Origin: a virus
IMG/VR virus record: IMGVR_UViG_3300005253_000019
Span: 1 to 45,308 of that record
Length of the DNA stretch: 45,308 bases
Reading direction: 5' to 3' (one strand)
Shown: positions 26,311 to 34,838 of the stretch, piece by piece
How the letters are laid out: every line of letters starts with the position of its first letter
Position numbering within the stretch: position 1 is the stretch's first letter
Made by a program: the position numbers and the translations under genes
Notes under the pieces: generated by a model
What the model was told of the DNA's origin: nothing
What the model saw: the letters and a program-made list of their open reading frames with translations, nothing else
Database searches by the model: none

Positions 26311-27222
26311 TTAGTGTAACTCCAATAATTTTGATAAAATGAATTCTACCACTGGCACCGTCACTGCGTTTCCTAGCTGTTTGTATCTTTGTGCATCACT
26401 AACTCCGGATGTCCATCCATCTGGAAAACCTTGTAATCTTTCACATTCCAGAGGAGTCAATCTTCTAATACTTCCTTTTTCTATAATCCCAAAATCATTA
26501 TTTGCTGCTGTTAGGATCCAGGTTGTATCTCGTTTTTGTATTCTTTGTTTCATATTGGCACTTTTAAAACTCATGTAAATCATTGCTCTATTTCCATAGC
26601 CTTTTTGGTATCCTGAGTCAATTGTTGGAATAGTTTGACTCGATACCAATTTCCTAGATTTTTGTGTCTTTGATCGTGTTTCAACATTCCTTTCAATGCT
26701 TTCTTTGATAGGAAATATTTTTGGTGTGGATGCTCCTCTAAGATGTCCGATAATGAAGATTCTCTCTCTGTTTTGTGGGACGAAATATTTGCTGTTAAGC
26801 ACTTGCCATTCTGCATCATACCCGAGCTCATCCAGCGTTTTGAGGATTGTTTCGAATGTTCTTCCTTTGTCGTGGCTGAGCAGTCCTTTGACGTTTTCAA
26901 GGAGTAAAATCTTAGGTCTTTTTTGTTTTGTAATCCTAGCGATTTCAAAAAATAGCGTGCCTCTTGACTCTTCAAATCCGAGCCTTTTTCCAGCAATGCT
27001 GAAAGCTTGACAAGGGAATCCTGCACAGAGTCCGTCAATGTTTGGGAGTTGTTCTGGAATAATTTTTGTTGCATCTGTTTCGGAGGGATATCTTCCAAAA
27101 TTTTTTTTGTAGGTTTCCCTGGCGTATTTGTCAATTTCACATGCACCTACAATTTCTTGACCGGTGTTTTGTAATGCCAAATCGAAGCCACCTATACCTG
27201 AAAACAGTGAAAACCATTTCAT
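26311..27222 (-). CDS. C5-cytosine DNA methyltransferase (303 aa)
   Basis: All main motifs are intact: motif I FSGIGGFDLA (about 6-17), PCQ with catalytic Cys71, ENV (about 109-111), QNRERIF (about 149-155) and the C-terminal LTPLECERLQGFPDGW with QLGNAV. The region about 165-240 is the target-recognition domain. No companion restriction nuclease is adjacent. Likely methylates viral DNA against host restriction. ATG overlaps the TGA of a 34-aa gene. Confidence 0.95.
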   Translation of the reverse strand: MKWFSLFSGIGGFDLALQNTGQEIVGACEIDKYARETYKKNFGRYPSETDATKIIPEQLPNIDGLCAGFPCQAFSIAGKRLGFEESRGTLFFEIARITKQKRPKILLLENVKGLLSHDKGRTFETILKTLDELGYDAEWQVLNSKYFVPQNRERIFIIGHLRGASTPKIFPIKESIERNVETRSKTQKSRKLVSSQTIPTIDSGYQKGYGNRAMIYMSFKSANMKQRIQKRDTTWILTAANNDFGIIEKGSIRRLTPLECERLQGFPDGWTSGVSDAQRYKQLGNAVTVPVVEFILSKLLELH

Positions 27223-31941: not shown

Positions 31942-32186
31942 TGTGCTACAGCTTTCCTATACTTATTTTTGTACTTCATAGCTCGGGGTTTAGTTCGTAA
32001 TCTATATCCACAGCATGGGCACCATCTGCCATCAAATTGCATGAAGATATTACAGATTTGGCAGCGTTTTTGTCCACTGGAATATCTAGCACCACCATTG
32101 TTTCCTGGTTTCCCAGCTTTGTATCTTTTACAAATTTCTTTACAGGTCATGGATTTAGTAAAAACCTCGCCAGATGTTGTTTCCAA
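31938..32186 (-). CDS. Thaumarchaeal-type zinc-ribbon protein (82 aa)
   Basis: CKEICKRYK followed by RYSSGQKRCQIC and CPCCGYRLRTKPR gives the pattern of a small zinc protein widespread in thaumarchaeal genomes, as I recall it. It is one of the best host markers here. It overlaps the nuclease gene by 40 nt. Probable nucleic-acid binding. Confidence 0.75.
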   Translation of the reverse strand: METTSGEVFTKSMTCKEICKRYKAGKPGNNGGARYSSGQKRCQICNIFMQFDGRWCPCCGYRLRTKPRAMKYKNKYRKAVAQ

Positions 32187-32668
32187 TTATTTTTTTTAAG
32201 ATCATATTCGTAAATTTTCCAAACTCTAAAACCAGCTAGTGAATAATAATTATCTCTTTTACTATCACGTTTTGTTGGTAAATCTCCTTCACGACCATGG
32301 CCTTTTGTAGCTAATCTTGCACCTGCCCGACGTCTTCCACCTTCTTCTTCATATTCAATAATAATTTTATTTTCAAAATCTAAAATGTCTGGGCAGTAAA
32401 CTTTATCTCCAATTTTTATTATTTCTTCTTTAGATTGAATTGGTGGATGGAATGGAATAACTCTTGAATCTCCTTCTTGAACCAGTGGTGGAACCATTGT
32501 CTTGAACTGAATAGCTGTTTCATAATCTCCACCATCTTCTTTAAATCTAAATGGTAATTCTAATAACATGCTAAGATCTGTGGCAAACCTGTAAATCTTG
32601 TGTAGCTTTTCTATATCTATTTCCCCCAAGGTTTGTTGCCTCCTAACGGATAATTTCTTTTTCTCCAT
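32147..32668 (-). CDS. PD-(D/E)XK / DUF559-like nuclease (173 aa)
   Basis: The core about 95-165 has PDILDFENKIIIEYEEE (Asp then Glu-x-Glu), and RDNYYSLAGFRVWKIYEYDL, the order of Vsr/DUF559-type endonucleases. Central insert is Gly/Arg-rich. ATG 32668 overlaps the upstream gene by 52 nt; TTG 32629 behind GGAGG is an alternative start. Adjacent to methyltransferase genes, so it may be a nicking or restriction-like activity on unmodified DNA. Confidence 0.6.
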   Translation of the reverse strand: MEKKKLSVRRQQTLGEIDIEKLHKIYRFATDLSMLLELPFRFKEDGGDYETAIQFKTMVPPLVQEGDSRVIPFHPPIQSKEEIIKIGDKVYCPDILDFENKIIIEYEEEGGRRRAGARLATKGHGREGDLPTKRDSKRDNYYSLAGFRVWKIYEYDLKKNNWKQHLARFLLNP

Positions 32669-32823
32669 TTGTTATAGATGTCTAAACATTTTACCTCACC
32701 AAGTTTCTCAATTAATAATTTTCTTAAGATGTCGACATTATCATCTCCTGGATAAGATGTAAGGTGCATACAATCTAGAACCCAACCAGGAACAGTGATT
32801 GTTACATAACCCTCTTTAGGCAA
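32617..32823 (-). CDS. Small hypothetical protein (68 aa)
   Basis: Compact 68-aa protein, with a first strand-like part (YVTITVPGW) then helices with basic C-terminus. TTG start overlaps the stop of the ParB/MT-A70 gene. Could be a ribbon-helix-helix regulator; not proven. Confidence 0.55.
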   Translation of the reverse strand: MPKEGYVTITVPGWVLDCMHLTSYPGDDNVDILRKLLIEKLGEVKCLDIYNKWRKRNYPLGGNKPWGK

Positions 32824-34006
32824 ATTTACCTACCTTTTTTTTAATTTCATTGCCATGTGAAGACCATCCTTTTCTTTTTCTACGTGCATATAGTTCCAGG
32901 TAATTTCTTTTAGGATACATCTGCTCTATTATTTCATAAAGCTTTTCTGGTTTCTTAGAATGCTGTGATCTTCTTTCTTTTATGATGCTAGAAAATAGTT
33001 TAGCAGGTGTAGGCATATTTCCTTTTATTGCAATAATACAGTTTTCGTGTTGGTTTCTAACCCAGGAACCTACACCAATAATTTCTTTATCCCATACATA
33101 TTCATTTTTTATTATTTTAAATCCCCATGCATCCAGTATAGCTTTGTAAGTTGGTGTTGGTATATCTCTAACAAACATATTCTTTCCACCTGCCCATGCA
33201 AATTTTGTAGTTACAGGAATTTCATAATACATTATGCTTGGGCTCATCCAAAAGAATATGATTGCGTTATCTGCAGATGGGATTTTTAGTTTCATTAATT
33301 TATGTGGTGGTATTGTAGAGTAATGATTTTCTGCTGCACCTCTTCCACCTTTATCAATAAAGGCAATTGGCACATCACATAAAATTACATCATAACTCCC
33401 TTTAGGGATCTTAGTTTTTGGTAAGCTTCTTTCTTCTTTTGTAAGTAAATTGTAAACTGTTTTGATTGTAGTCTTGCCAGATTCTAGTGCGTTTTGTTTG
33501 TTAACACGAGCTGGTGAATCATTAATTACTACAAATCTTTCAAATGTAGGTGTAGAAACACCTGCTGCTTTTGCTGCAATTGCAGCAGCCTTACCCTTAG
33601 CATCCTGGGATGCTAGGGTTCCCTTTTTTTGTCTGGTAACTGCTTCTTTTTTTGCTTGATCATAAACTGGTAATCCCCATTGGCATTTTTGGTATATGGA
33701 TAAATGCCTTCTTTTTCTATTCACTGAAACAATAAATCCTAATTTTTCAGATTCGGAGCTAAAGCTGTATTGATTGTAAAGTATAGTTACAGATTTTAAT
33801 AATCCTAAGATTTCATCCCTGGTGTAACCATCTAATAAATTACAATCTCTATCAAGAGATACTGGTATTTTCTGGCCAGTTTTTTTAAGGTCATCATACA
33901 TTACATCAAAGTCTTCATCAGTAAGATTTTGATGGAATTTGTAATACTTTAATGGCCGTTTTAATTTACTACGTTCAATTAATTTATTGGTTTCAACTAA
34001 TCTCAT
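32816..34006 (-). CDS. ParB-like domain fused to MT-A70-family methyltransferase with altered motif (396 aa)
   Basis: Residues about 1-75 follow a ParB/Srx-like fold with DGYTR (about 59-63); a helix-turn-helix-like part spans about 130-160. From about 200 the MT-A70 plan is clear: GAAENHYSTIP, FFWMSPS, AWGFKIIKNEYVWDKEIIGVGSWVRNQHE, HSKKPEKLYEIIEQM, LELYARR. The catalytic DPPW is replaced by DVPI (about 211-214), so activity is doubtful. Normally adds N6-methyl to adenine. It may be a DNA-binding pseudoenzyme or active with altered chemistry. Confidence 0.8.
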   Translation of the reverse strand: MRLVETNKLIERSKLKRPLKYYKFHQNLTDEDFDVMYDDLKKTGQKIPVSLDRDCNLLDGYTRDEILGLLKSVTILYNQYSFSSESEKLGFIVSVNRKRRHLSIYQKCQWGLPVYDQAKKEAVTRQKKGTLASQDAKGKAAAIAAKAAGVSTPTFERFVVINDSPARVNKQNALESGKTTIKTVYNLLTKEERSLPKTKIPKGSYDVILCDVPIAFIDKGGRGAAENHYSTIPPHKLMKLKIPSADNAIIFFWMSPSIMYYEIPVTTKFAWAGGKNMFVRDIPTPTYKAILDAWGFKIIKNEYVWDKEIIGVGSWVRNQHENCIIAIKGNMPTPAKLFSSIIKERRSQHSKKPEKLYEIIEQMYPKRNYLELYARRKRKGWSSHGNEIKKKVGKFA

Positions 34007-34155
34007 TTTATTAAATCAATCTCTGTAAATGAGTATGCAAAAGGATCATCTTGTTTGTCAATGTATGCAAAAGCTTGTGCTTTATCTAGAAATGCTGGTC
34101 CAGCTTTAACAAATCTAGTGTTAGAATCCCATTGGTGTATTATAAAACATTTCAT
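34003..34155 (-). CDS. Microprotein between the two methyltransferase genes (50 aa)
   Basis: 50 aa, mixed sequence (MKCFIIHQWDSNTRFVKAG...), start and stop both overlapped by ATGA. Unknown. Possibly a partner of the adjacent modified methyltransferases. Confidence 0.6.
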   Translation of the reverse strand: MKCFIIHQWDSNTRFVKAGPAFLDKAQAFAYIDKQDDPFAYSFTEIDLIK

Positions 34156-34838
34156 CTTAGTTTCCTGCCATCGATTTTAAAATTAGATGTTAGCATAACT
34201 TTTGGATATTTGCCAGACACTACATATTCACTAGTGACTAATGTGTTGTAGAATTTTGATTTTTTCATTCGGATAGATTCCTTTCTAGTAGTTATGATGA
34301 ATTTACCCTGGATTGTTTCACAGATTTTTAATATTTCTTCTTCATATTCTTTTACAGCGTATCTATCAAAACAGGAAAACTTTTGATCATAATATGATCT
34401 GTTCCAGGGAATATCAAATAAGAAAAATGTTTCTGGTCCATCCCAGCATTTTATACAATTAGTAAAATCTTCTACTAATATAACTACATTAGAATCATTA
34501 AAAAATTCTTTAAGGAGCCAATTAAAGATAAATTTTGATTTATCATTTAGAACAAATTGTGTGTTTGTAAATTTTTTTGATTTTAAGATTTCTTGAAATA
34601 CCTTAGCTGTTCCTGCAAATGGTTCTACATACCATCTACATTCAGGAATAACATTAGTTATTCTTCTAGCTACACCAGATAAACCAGGAAAGCCAGCCCA
34701 CCTTTTACCATCATCTATTCTAGGTAGTGAGATTGATTTCTGGCCTAATCTGTTTACAATTGTTTTAGGTGCATATTCATTAAGTGGTTCCTGTGTGGTT
34801 TTGATGCCACGAAACTTTTTTGGGAGTGCTCCAGTCAA
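34152..34838 (-). CDS. D12-class N6-adenine methyltransferase homologue with altered motif IV (228 aa)
   Basis: Motif I is YVEPFAGTAKVF (about 70-81), followed by LND (about 97-99), as in Dam-type D12 enzymes. Motif IV, normally DPPY, is DIPW (about 142-145) in LFDIPWNRSYY. The remaining fold (KFIITTRKES) is kept. TTG starts with TTGA coupling. The enzyme may be weak, or specific for a different target; this is the second methyltransferase here with motif IV changed. Confidence 0.75.
   Translation of the reverse strand: MTGALPKKFRGIKTTQEPLNEYAPKTIVNRLGQKSISLPRIDDGKRWAGFPGLSGVARRITNVIPECRWYVEPFAGTAKVFQEILKSKKFTNTQFVLNDKSKFIFNWLLKEFFNDSNVVILVEDFTNCIKCWDGPETFFLFDIPWNRSYYDQKFSCFDRYAVKEYEEEILKICETIQGKFIITTRKESIRMKKSKFYNTLVTSEYVVSGKYPKVMLTSNFKIDGRKLR

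Follow-up and report, generated by a model that had tools for sequence, protein, structure and literature searches.

In METTL3, W398 is modelled as stacking on the acceptor adenine and the D395A substitution abolishes activity. Within the same MT-A70 family, METTL14 carries the motif EPPL, does not bind SAM and is inactive, and MTA9 carries NALW and was not seen with SAM bound. To our knowledge, every MT-A70 protein so far recognised as non-catalytic is a eukaryotic partner subunit of this kind (METTL14, MTA9). For MTA1, the residues in contact with SAM include D209, S332, R357, N360, N370 and E371 (PMC9852454). In a phage MT-A70, changing the motif IV sequence DPPW to APPA abolished the in vivo effect (PMC10810198), and fusions of a ParB-CTPase fold with MT-A70 have been reported as enriched in archaea (PMC12704722).

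The window, that is, the whole stretch of DNA analysed here, is a 45.3-kb virus record of about 34% GC. It contains tailed-virus structural genes and a minus-strand stretch crowded with small overlapping ORFs. The following features of the window are of interest here.

26311-27222, minus strand: C5-cytosine DNA methyltransferase (PF00145, E 2e-88; PCQ, ENV and QNRERI motifs intact)
32147-32668, minus strand: 173-aa ORF, earlier called nuclease-like, a label from appearance only
32816-34006, minus strand: P0001, 396 aa, fusion of a ParB-like domain and MT-A70 (Pfam, PHROG and structure matches)
32846-32962, minus strand: retained donor-site segment of P0001, HSKKP...LELYAR...GWSSHGNE, aa 349-387 (MTA1 alignment, conserved columns)
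33137-33211, minus strand: 25-aa insertion in P0001, about aa 266-290 with alignment-dependent edges, present in none of the aligned relatives
33365-33376, minus strand: altered motif IV of P0001, DVPI instead of DPPW, aa 211-214 (codons GAT GTG CCA ATT)
33626-33928, minus strand: ParB-CTPase-like N-terminal domain of P0001, about aa 27-127 (PHROG ParB models, PDB profile matches)
34003-34155, minus strand: 50-aa ORF separating the P0001 and P0002 genes, with a 4-base overlap with each
34152-34838, minus strand: P0002, short D12/Dam-like methyltransferase, 228 aa, TTG start (PF02086, fold match)
34404-34415, minus strand: motif IV of P0002, DIPW, aa 142-145, where relatives have DPPW or DQPW (alignment)
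34599-34625, minus strand: motif I of P0002, EPFAGTAKV, aa 72-80, intact (alignment)

The two methyltransferase-like ORFs, their strands and the motifs DVPI and DIPW are as the original prediction described them, and Pfam confirmed the MT-A70 and D12 families. The 50-aa peptide that it named is also present, and family libraries including Pfam and PHROGs gave no match to it. The nuclease-like gene could not be established, the 173-aa ORF having zero matches in Pfam, PHROGs, NCBIfam, PADLOC and PDB; by eye, its sequence (CPDILDFENKIIIEYE...) looks PD-(D/E)xK-like. Judged by its motifs, the C5-cytosine enzyme is a canonical methyltransferase in the same virus as P0001 and P0002.

P0001 matched the MT-A70 family PF05063 with an E value of 1e-16 and 61.4 bits (curated cut-off 23.9), and it is the only PF05063 match in the window. 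Its structure model (pLDDT 86) gave the catalytic domains of METTL3 and MTA1 as the best PDB matches, with E of about 1e-12. The ParB-like domain that had been proposed held up as well. PHROG ParB models matched the N-terminus with E of about 1e-3, and a family profile matched solved ParB structures (ParB nuclease, Noc/Spo0J) with E values from 1e-7 to 1e-9. The Box II-type GxxR is found as GYTR at aa 60-63. P0001 shares its domain order and this N-terminal Box II GxxR with the reported ParB-CTPase/MT-A70 fusions, and it shares N-terminal similarity with its closest full-length relatives (L012, L145, L253). Because the archaea-enriched fusion had already been described (PMC12704722), the combination of ParB and MT-A70 is not new. 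The novelty of P0001 lies in its changed active site and its insertion: the fusions examined have DPPW, whereas P0001 has DVPI and 25 additional residues. P0001 also resembles M.EcoPA8orf6770P (PMC10810198), a virus-borne MT-A70 with a nucleic-acid-binding part. This part is a separate subunit in M.EcoPA8orf6770P and a fused domain in P0001, and in the former DPPW is intact and required. Stand-alone ParB-like proteins with a zinc-finger-like tail, related to the P0001 N-terminus, were seen at L103:11738-12382 and in L104; they sit in both records that bear the closest D12 relative of P0002.

For the comparison of motif IV, we gathered MT-A70 relatives from viral contigs, phages and cellular genomes, using sequence collections that may omit near-identical records. 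The set comprised 163 alignable relatives (84 viral and 79 cellular), and one further cellular locus that could not be aligned at motif IV was left out. The viral relatives carry DPPW (64), DPEW (14), DPAW (5) or DCPW (1), and the cellular ones DPPW (78) or DPPY (1). DPPW was found in 142 of the 163, position 4 is Trp in all but one (Tyr), and none of the 163 has DVPI. Six complete archaeal relatives from the genome search, read by eye, all have DPPW; the archaeal phyla searched for close P0001 relatives yielded few MT-A70 proteins, and every readable one has DPPW. In the aligned sequences of this set, the Asp of motif IV is invariant and the Trp nearly so, and the prolines at positions 2 and 3 are replaceable. 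DVPI differs from DPPW at the second and fourth positions.

A pattern scan restricted to YDVIxxDVP recovered one further MT-A70, L225, with DVPA; the remaining matches were unrelated. This protein with its eroded motif (L225:8620-9285, minus strand) lies in the prophage-like IMG/VR record 2896003607, and those of its relatives that were opened have DPPW, DPAW or DIPW. Sinorhizobium meliloti pSymB (L239) holds the remnant of an MT-A70 gene, frameshifted and with DIPW at motif IV, and several pSymB records repeat its broken match pattern. A viral MT-A70 at L034:2477-3031 has DCPW, with the first proline replaced and the Trp kept. Given DVPA in L225 and DIPW in the frameshifted pSymB locus, an eroded MT-A70 motif IV is, by alignment, rare, yet it also occurs outside the window.

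Aligned with MTA1, residues D211, S350, R375, N386 and E387 of P0001 fall on the SAM contacts D209, S332, R357, N370 and E371, and the counterpart of N360 is not matched (R378). P0001 retains the general catalytic Asp, D211, together with P213, and its Y229 aligns with METTL3 Y406 in an invariant column. By analogy with METTL3, Val in place of P396 need not cost the main-chain contact, and Ile in place of W398 would remove the stacking. In view of this lost stacking residue and of the METTL14, MTA9 and phage APPA cases, P0001 is likely inactive or very slow on adenine, and SAM binding may persist. METTL14 and MTA9 are like P0001 in combining the MT-A70 fold with an eroded motif IV, and METTL14 also lacks the aromatic residue, although its motif is eroded further than that of P0001. 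Those two proteins have lost SAM binding, whereas P0001 keeps the mapped SAM-contact residues; METTL14, for instance, has P362/T363 where P0001 keeps N386/E387. Furthermore, METTL14 and MTA9 pair with an active MT-A70, whereas the window encodes no MT-A70 partner for P0001, which carries a ParB-like domain.

The reading that we hold, with slightly more confidence than doubt and on the strength of sequence comparison, is that P0001 is a pseudo-methyltransferase and P0002 a separate, Dam-like and probably active enzyme. P0001, a complete and well-conserved protein of the ParB-fused MT-A70 group, has lost the motif IV Trp and first Pro and has retained the fold, D211 and the mapped SAM-pocket residues. 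It would bind SAM and would use its ParB-like domain, perhaps with nucleotide gating, to bind nucleic acid; it would transfer no methyl group to adenine, or do so very slowly, and its role would be that of a factor for binding, masking or targeting, not of a writer. P0002 would belong to an archaeal-virus-type Dam-like subfamily in which the first Pro can be replaced, and would probably still methylate adenine. If so, the split into active and inactive MT-A70 proteins also arises in viruses of prokaryotes, and P0001 would provide a small experimental system in which to study the MT-A70 fold in a non-catalytic role, as well as a warning against labelling each PF05063 match a methyltransferase.

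The retention of D211 and Y229 speaks against a pseudoenzyme, and some P0001 activity may survive, because MT-A70 proteins tolerate DPEW, DPAW and DCPW, and DVPA (L225) and DIPW (frameshifted) also occur. P0001 could thus still be active, on a different substrate or at a different rate, if D211, P213 and the SAM site are enough and another residue replaces the Trp. We consider this unlikely, though it deserves real weight. In its favour, P0001 keeps the donor site together with the catalytic Asp, P213 and Y229, positions 2 and 3 of motif IV differ among natural MT-A70 proteins, the prophage protein has DVPA, and the unique insertion could supply residues. However, position 4 is aromatic throughout the 163 relatives (Trp, with the single Tyr), METTL14, the known MT-A70 with a non-aromatic residue there (EPPL), is inactive, and the insertion was modelled at lower confidence (pLDDT about 60).

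The pattern of change across P0001 bears on whether DVPI reflects decay or error. Conserved columns were defined as those with one residue in at least 85% of the MT-A70 relatives, which gave 32 columns. P0001 matches 24 of them and differs conservatively in 6 (C/A, I/L, S/T, M/L, I/L, Y/F), the only radical differences being P212V and W214I. P0001 has 46 residues in the stretch that separates the FFW strand from the WGF helix, against 21-23 in all other sequences. Conservation is among the highest in the C-terminal donor segment, which is 47-51% identical to some relatives. The picture suggests relaxed constraint on the acceptor side and a retained donor site, rather than uniform decay. Relatives do carry canonical motifs, which the original prediction had linked to random decay or assembly error, but the conservation pattern argues against both.

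At least five base substitutions in two codons separate DPPW from the DVPI encoded by GAT GTG CCA ATT. Because five base changes are needed, a base-call error is an unlikely source of DVPI, and this candidate was ruled out. A sequencing or assembly artefact more broadly could be suspected in a single metagenomic contig whose read data are absent here; it would, however, require at least five substitutions plus a 75-base in-frame insertion within an open, conserved frame, and we regard it as barely credible.

A recent loss is a different matter: the catalytic site would have gone in this lineage, with the ParB-like half alone still under selection. The terminal branch of P0001 is 1.08, against a median of 0.24 in the 133-row tree, and is among the two longest; since it is so long, the position of P0001 among its relatives is uncertain. 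With DVPI in none of the aligned relatives, the altered motif is known from a single sequence and may not be maintained. MT-A70 was also not found in the related virus G002, so the gene may be dispensable. On the other hand, the 396 codons run without a stop in DNA of about 67% AT, the donor segment is well conserved, and drift that produced five changes in two codons should also have damaged other conserved columns. We judge recent loss to be distinctly improbable.

P0002 matched the D12 family PF02086 with an E value of 1e-5 and 25.4 bits against a cut-off of 22, and its score to TIGR00571 was under the cut-off. In its structure model (pLDDT 83.5, pTM 0.84), the top fold match was E. coli Dam, with a TM of 0.50. 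P0002 shares with the D12/Dam family the profile, the fold, the EPFAG motif I and an LND motif. It differs in being shorter, in having no separate target-recognition domain and in motif IV, with Trp for Tyr and Ile at the first Pro; the Lys normally present in motif X is missing from its subfamily.

A single-sequence scan of viral contigs, a tblastn search against phages and a D12-alignment scan of genomes found no relatives of P0002. Close relatives were recovered by a DNA pattern for motif I (EPFAGTAK), followed by an alignment scan. The closest, L092, has 62% identity and DPPW, and L094 is identical to it over its readable extent. L107 (53%) has DQPW, and L108 and L109 (37% and 31%) both have DPPW. 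The aligned D12 relatives comprise 33 with DPPY (other phage D12 proteins), 5 with DPPW, among which the L092 sequence is counted three times, and 1 with DQPW; DIPW is absent among them. A scan with position 2 left open (TFF[LF][IF]DxPW) found more distant D12 members, all with DPPW. From these alignments, the first proline is variable in the nearest clade of P0002 (P, Q or I), with the Asp, the second Pro and the Trp kept. Several D12-like domains (L111, L116, L121, L132 and others) open frames of more than 1000 aa, which suggests large fusions.

The active rRNA N6-dimethyltransferases Erm and KsgA have I, L or V at the first-proline position, and PikR1, reported as mono-methylating, has NVPF (PMC3814359, PMC6787224). 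DIPW has only the Ile and Pro in common with the Erm/KsgA consensus (A/S/N)(L/I/V)P(Y/F), its Asp and Trp being outside it, and it is also outside the D12/Dam motif IV consensus (N/D)PP(Y/F/W). Taken together, P0002 is probably still an adenine-methylating enzyme and its motif change a mild one; because the subfamily has no motif X Lys, activity is likely, not certain. The idea of two modified or inactive enzymes thus stands for the MT-A70 protein, which is modified and probably inactive, and, as regards inactivity, is not supported for the D12 protein, whose clade varies at the first proline. Nor are the two motif changes equivalent, and their treatment as one shared event is not supported.

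A small hydrophobic residue at the first proline has been described as separating di- from mono-methylating N6-adenine enzymes (PMC3814359). Since P0002 has such a replacement, it could convert adenine in viral DNA to N6,N6-dimethyladenine, or methylate m6A a second time, with the pseudoenzyme P0001 as a reader of methylated adenines. By this analogy P0002 and P0001 would form an archaeal-virus writer/reader pair from two methyltransferase folds, a proposal that we rate as a long shot.

Whether P0001 and P0002 belong together was also addressed through their relatives. Four records with D12 relatives (G003, G007, G008 and G009, two of them close at 53-62%) gave no PF05063 match, in a family search that does detect the P0001 gene of the window. 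Conversely, the flanks of the 84 MT-A70 loci yielded no P0002-like D12; the only D12 there was a borderline, ordinary one in L071. A METTL3-METTL14-like heterodimer had been suggested. The two genes are codirectional, one small ORF apart and joined by 4-base overlaps, and pairs of an active and an inactive subunit are known among MT-A70 proteins. But P0002 has the Dam-type D12 fold, a different class from MT-A70, the families do not co-occur, in either direction, in the records and flanks examined, and the window holds a single MT-A70, although a host-encoded partner is conceivable. The 4-base overlaps, moreover, are common throughout the early region on the minus strand. Such a heterodimer is thus highly improbable, and the D12 protein as partner subunit of P0001 was ruled out by fold and co-occurrence. 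On our reading they are simply adjacent members of an early-gene run, and do not encode two halves of a single enzyme.

The virus is probably archaeal-like, because the window has a HerA-type ATPase and because L109, a record with a D12 relative, has a RadA-like gene, assigned by eye. A terminase-based search for related viruses returned two records, with P0001 and P0002 in neither. One of these viruses, G002, carries a methyltransferase-like ORF (L009:12048-12845, minus strand) whose motif IV is SLPF, another replacement of the first proline by a hydrophobic residue.
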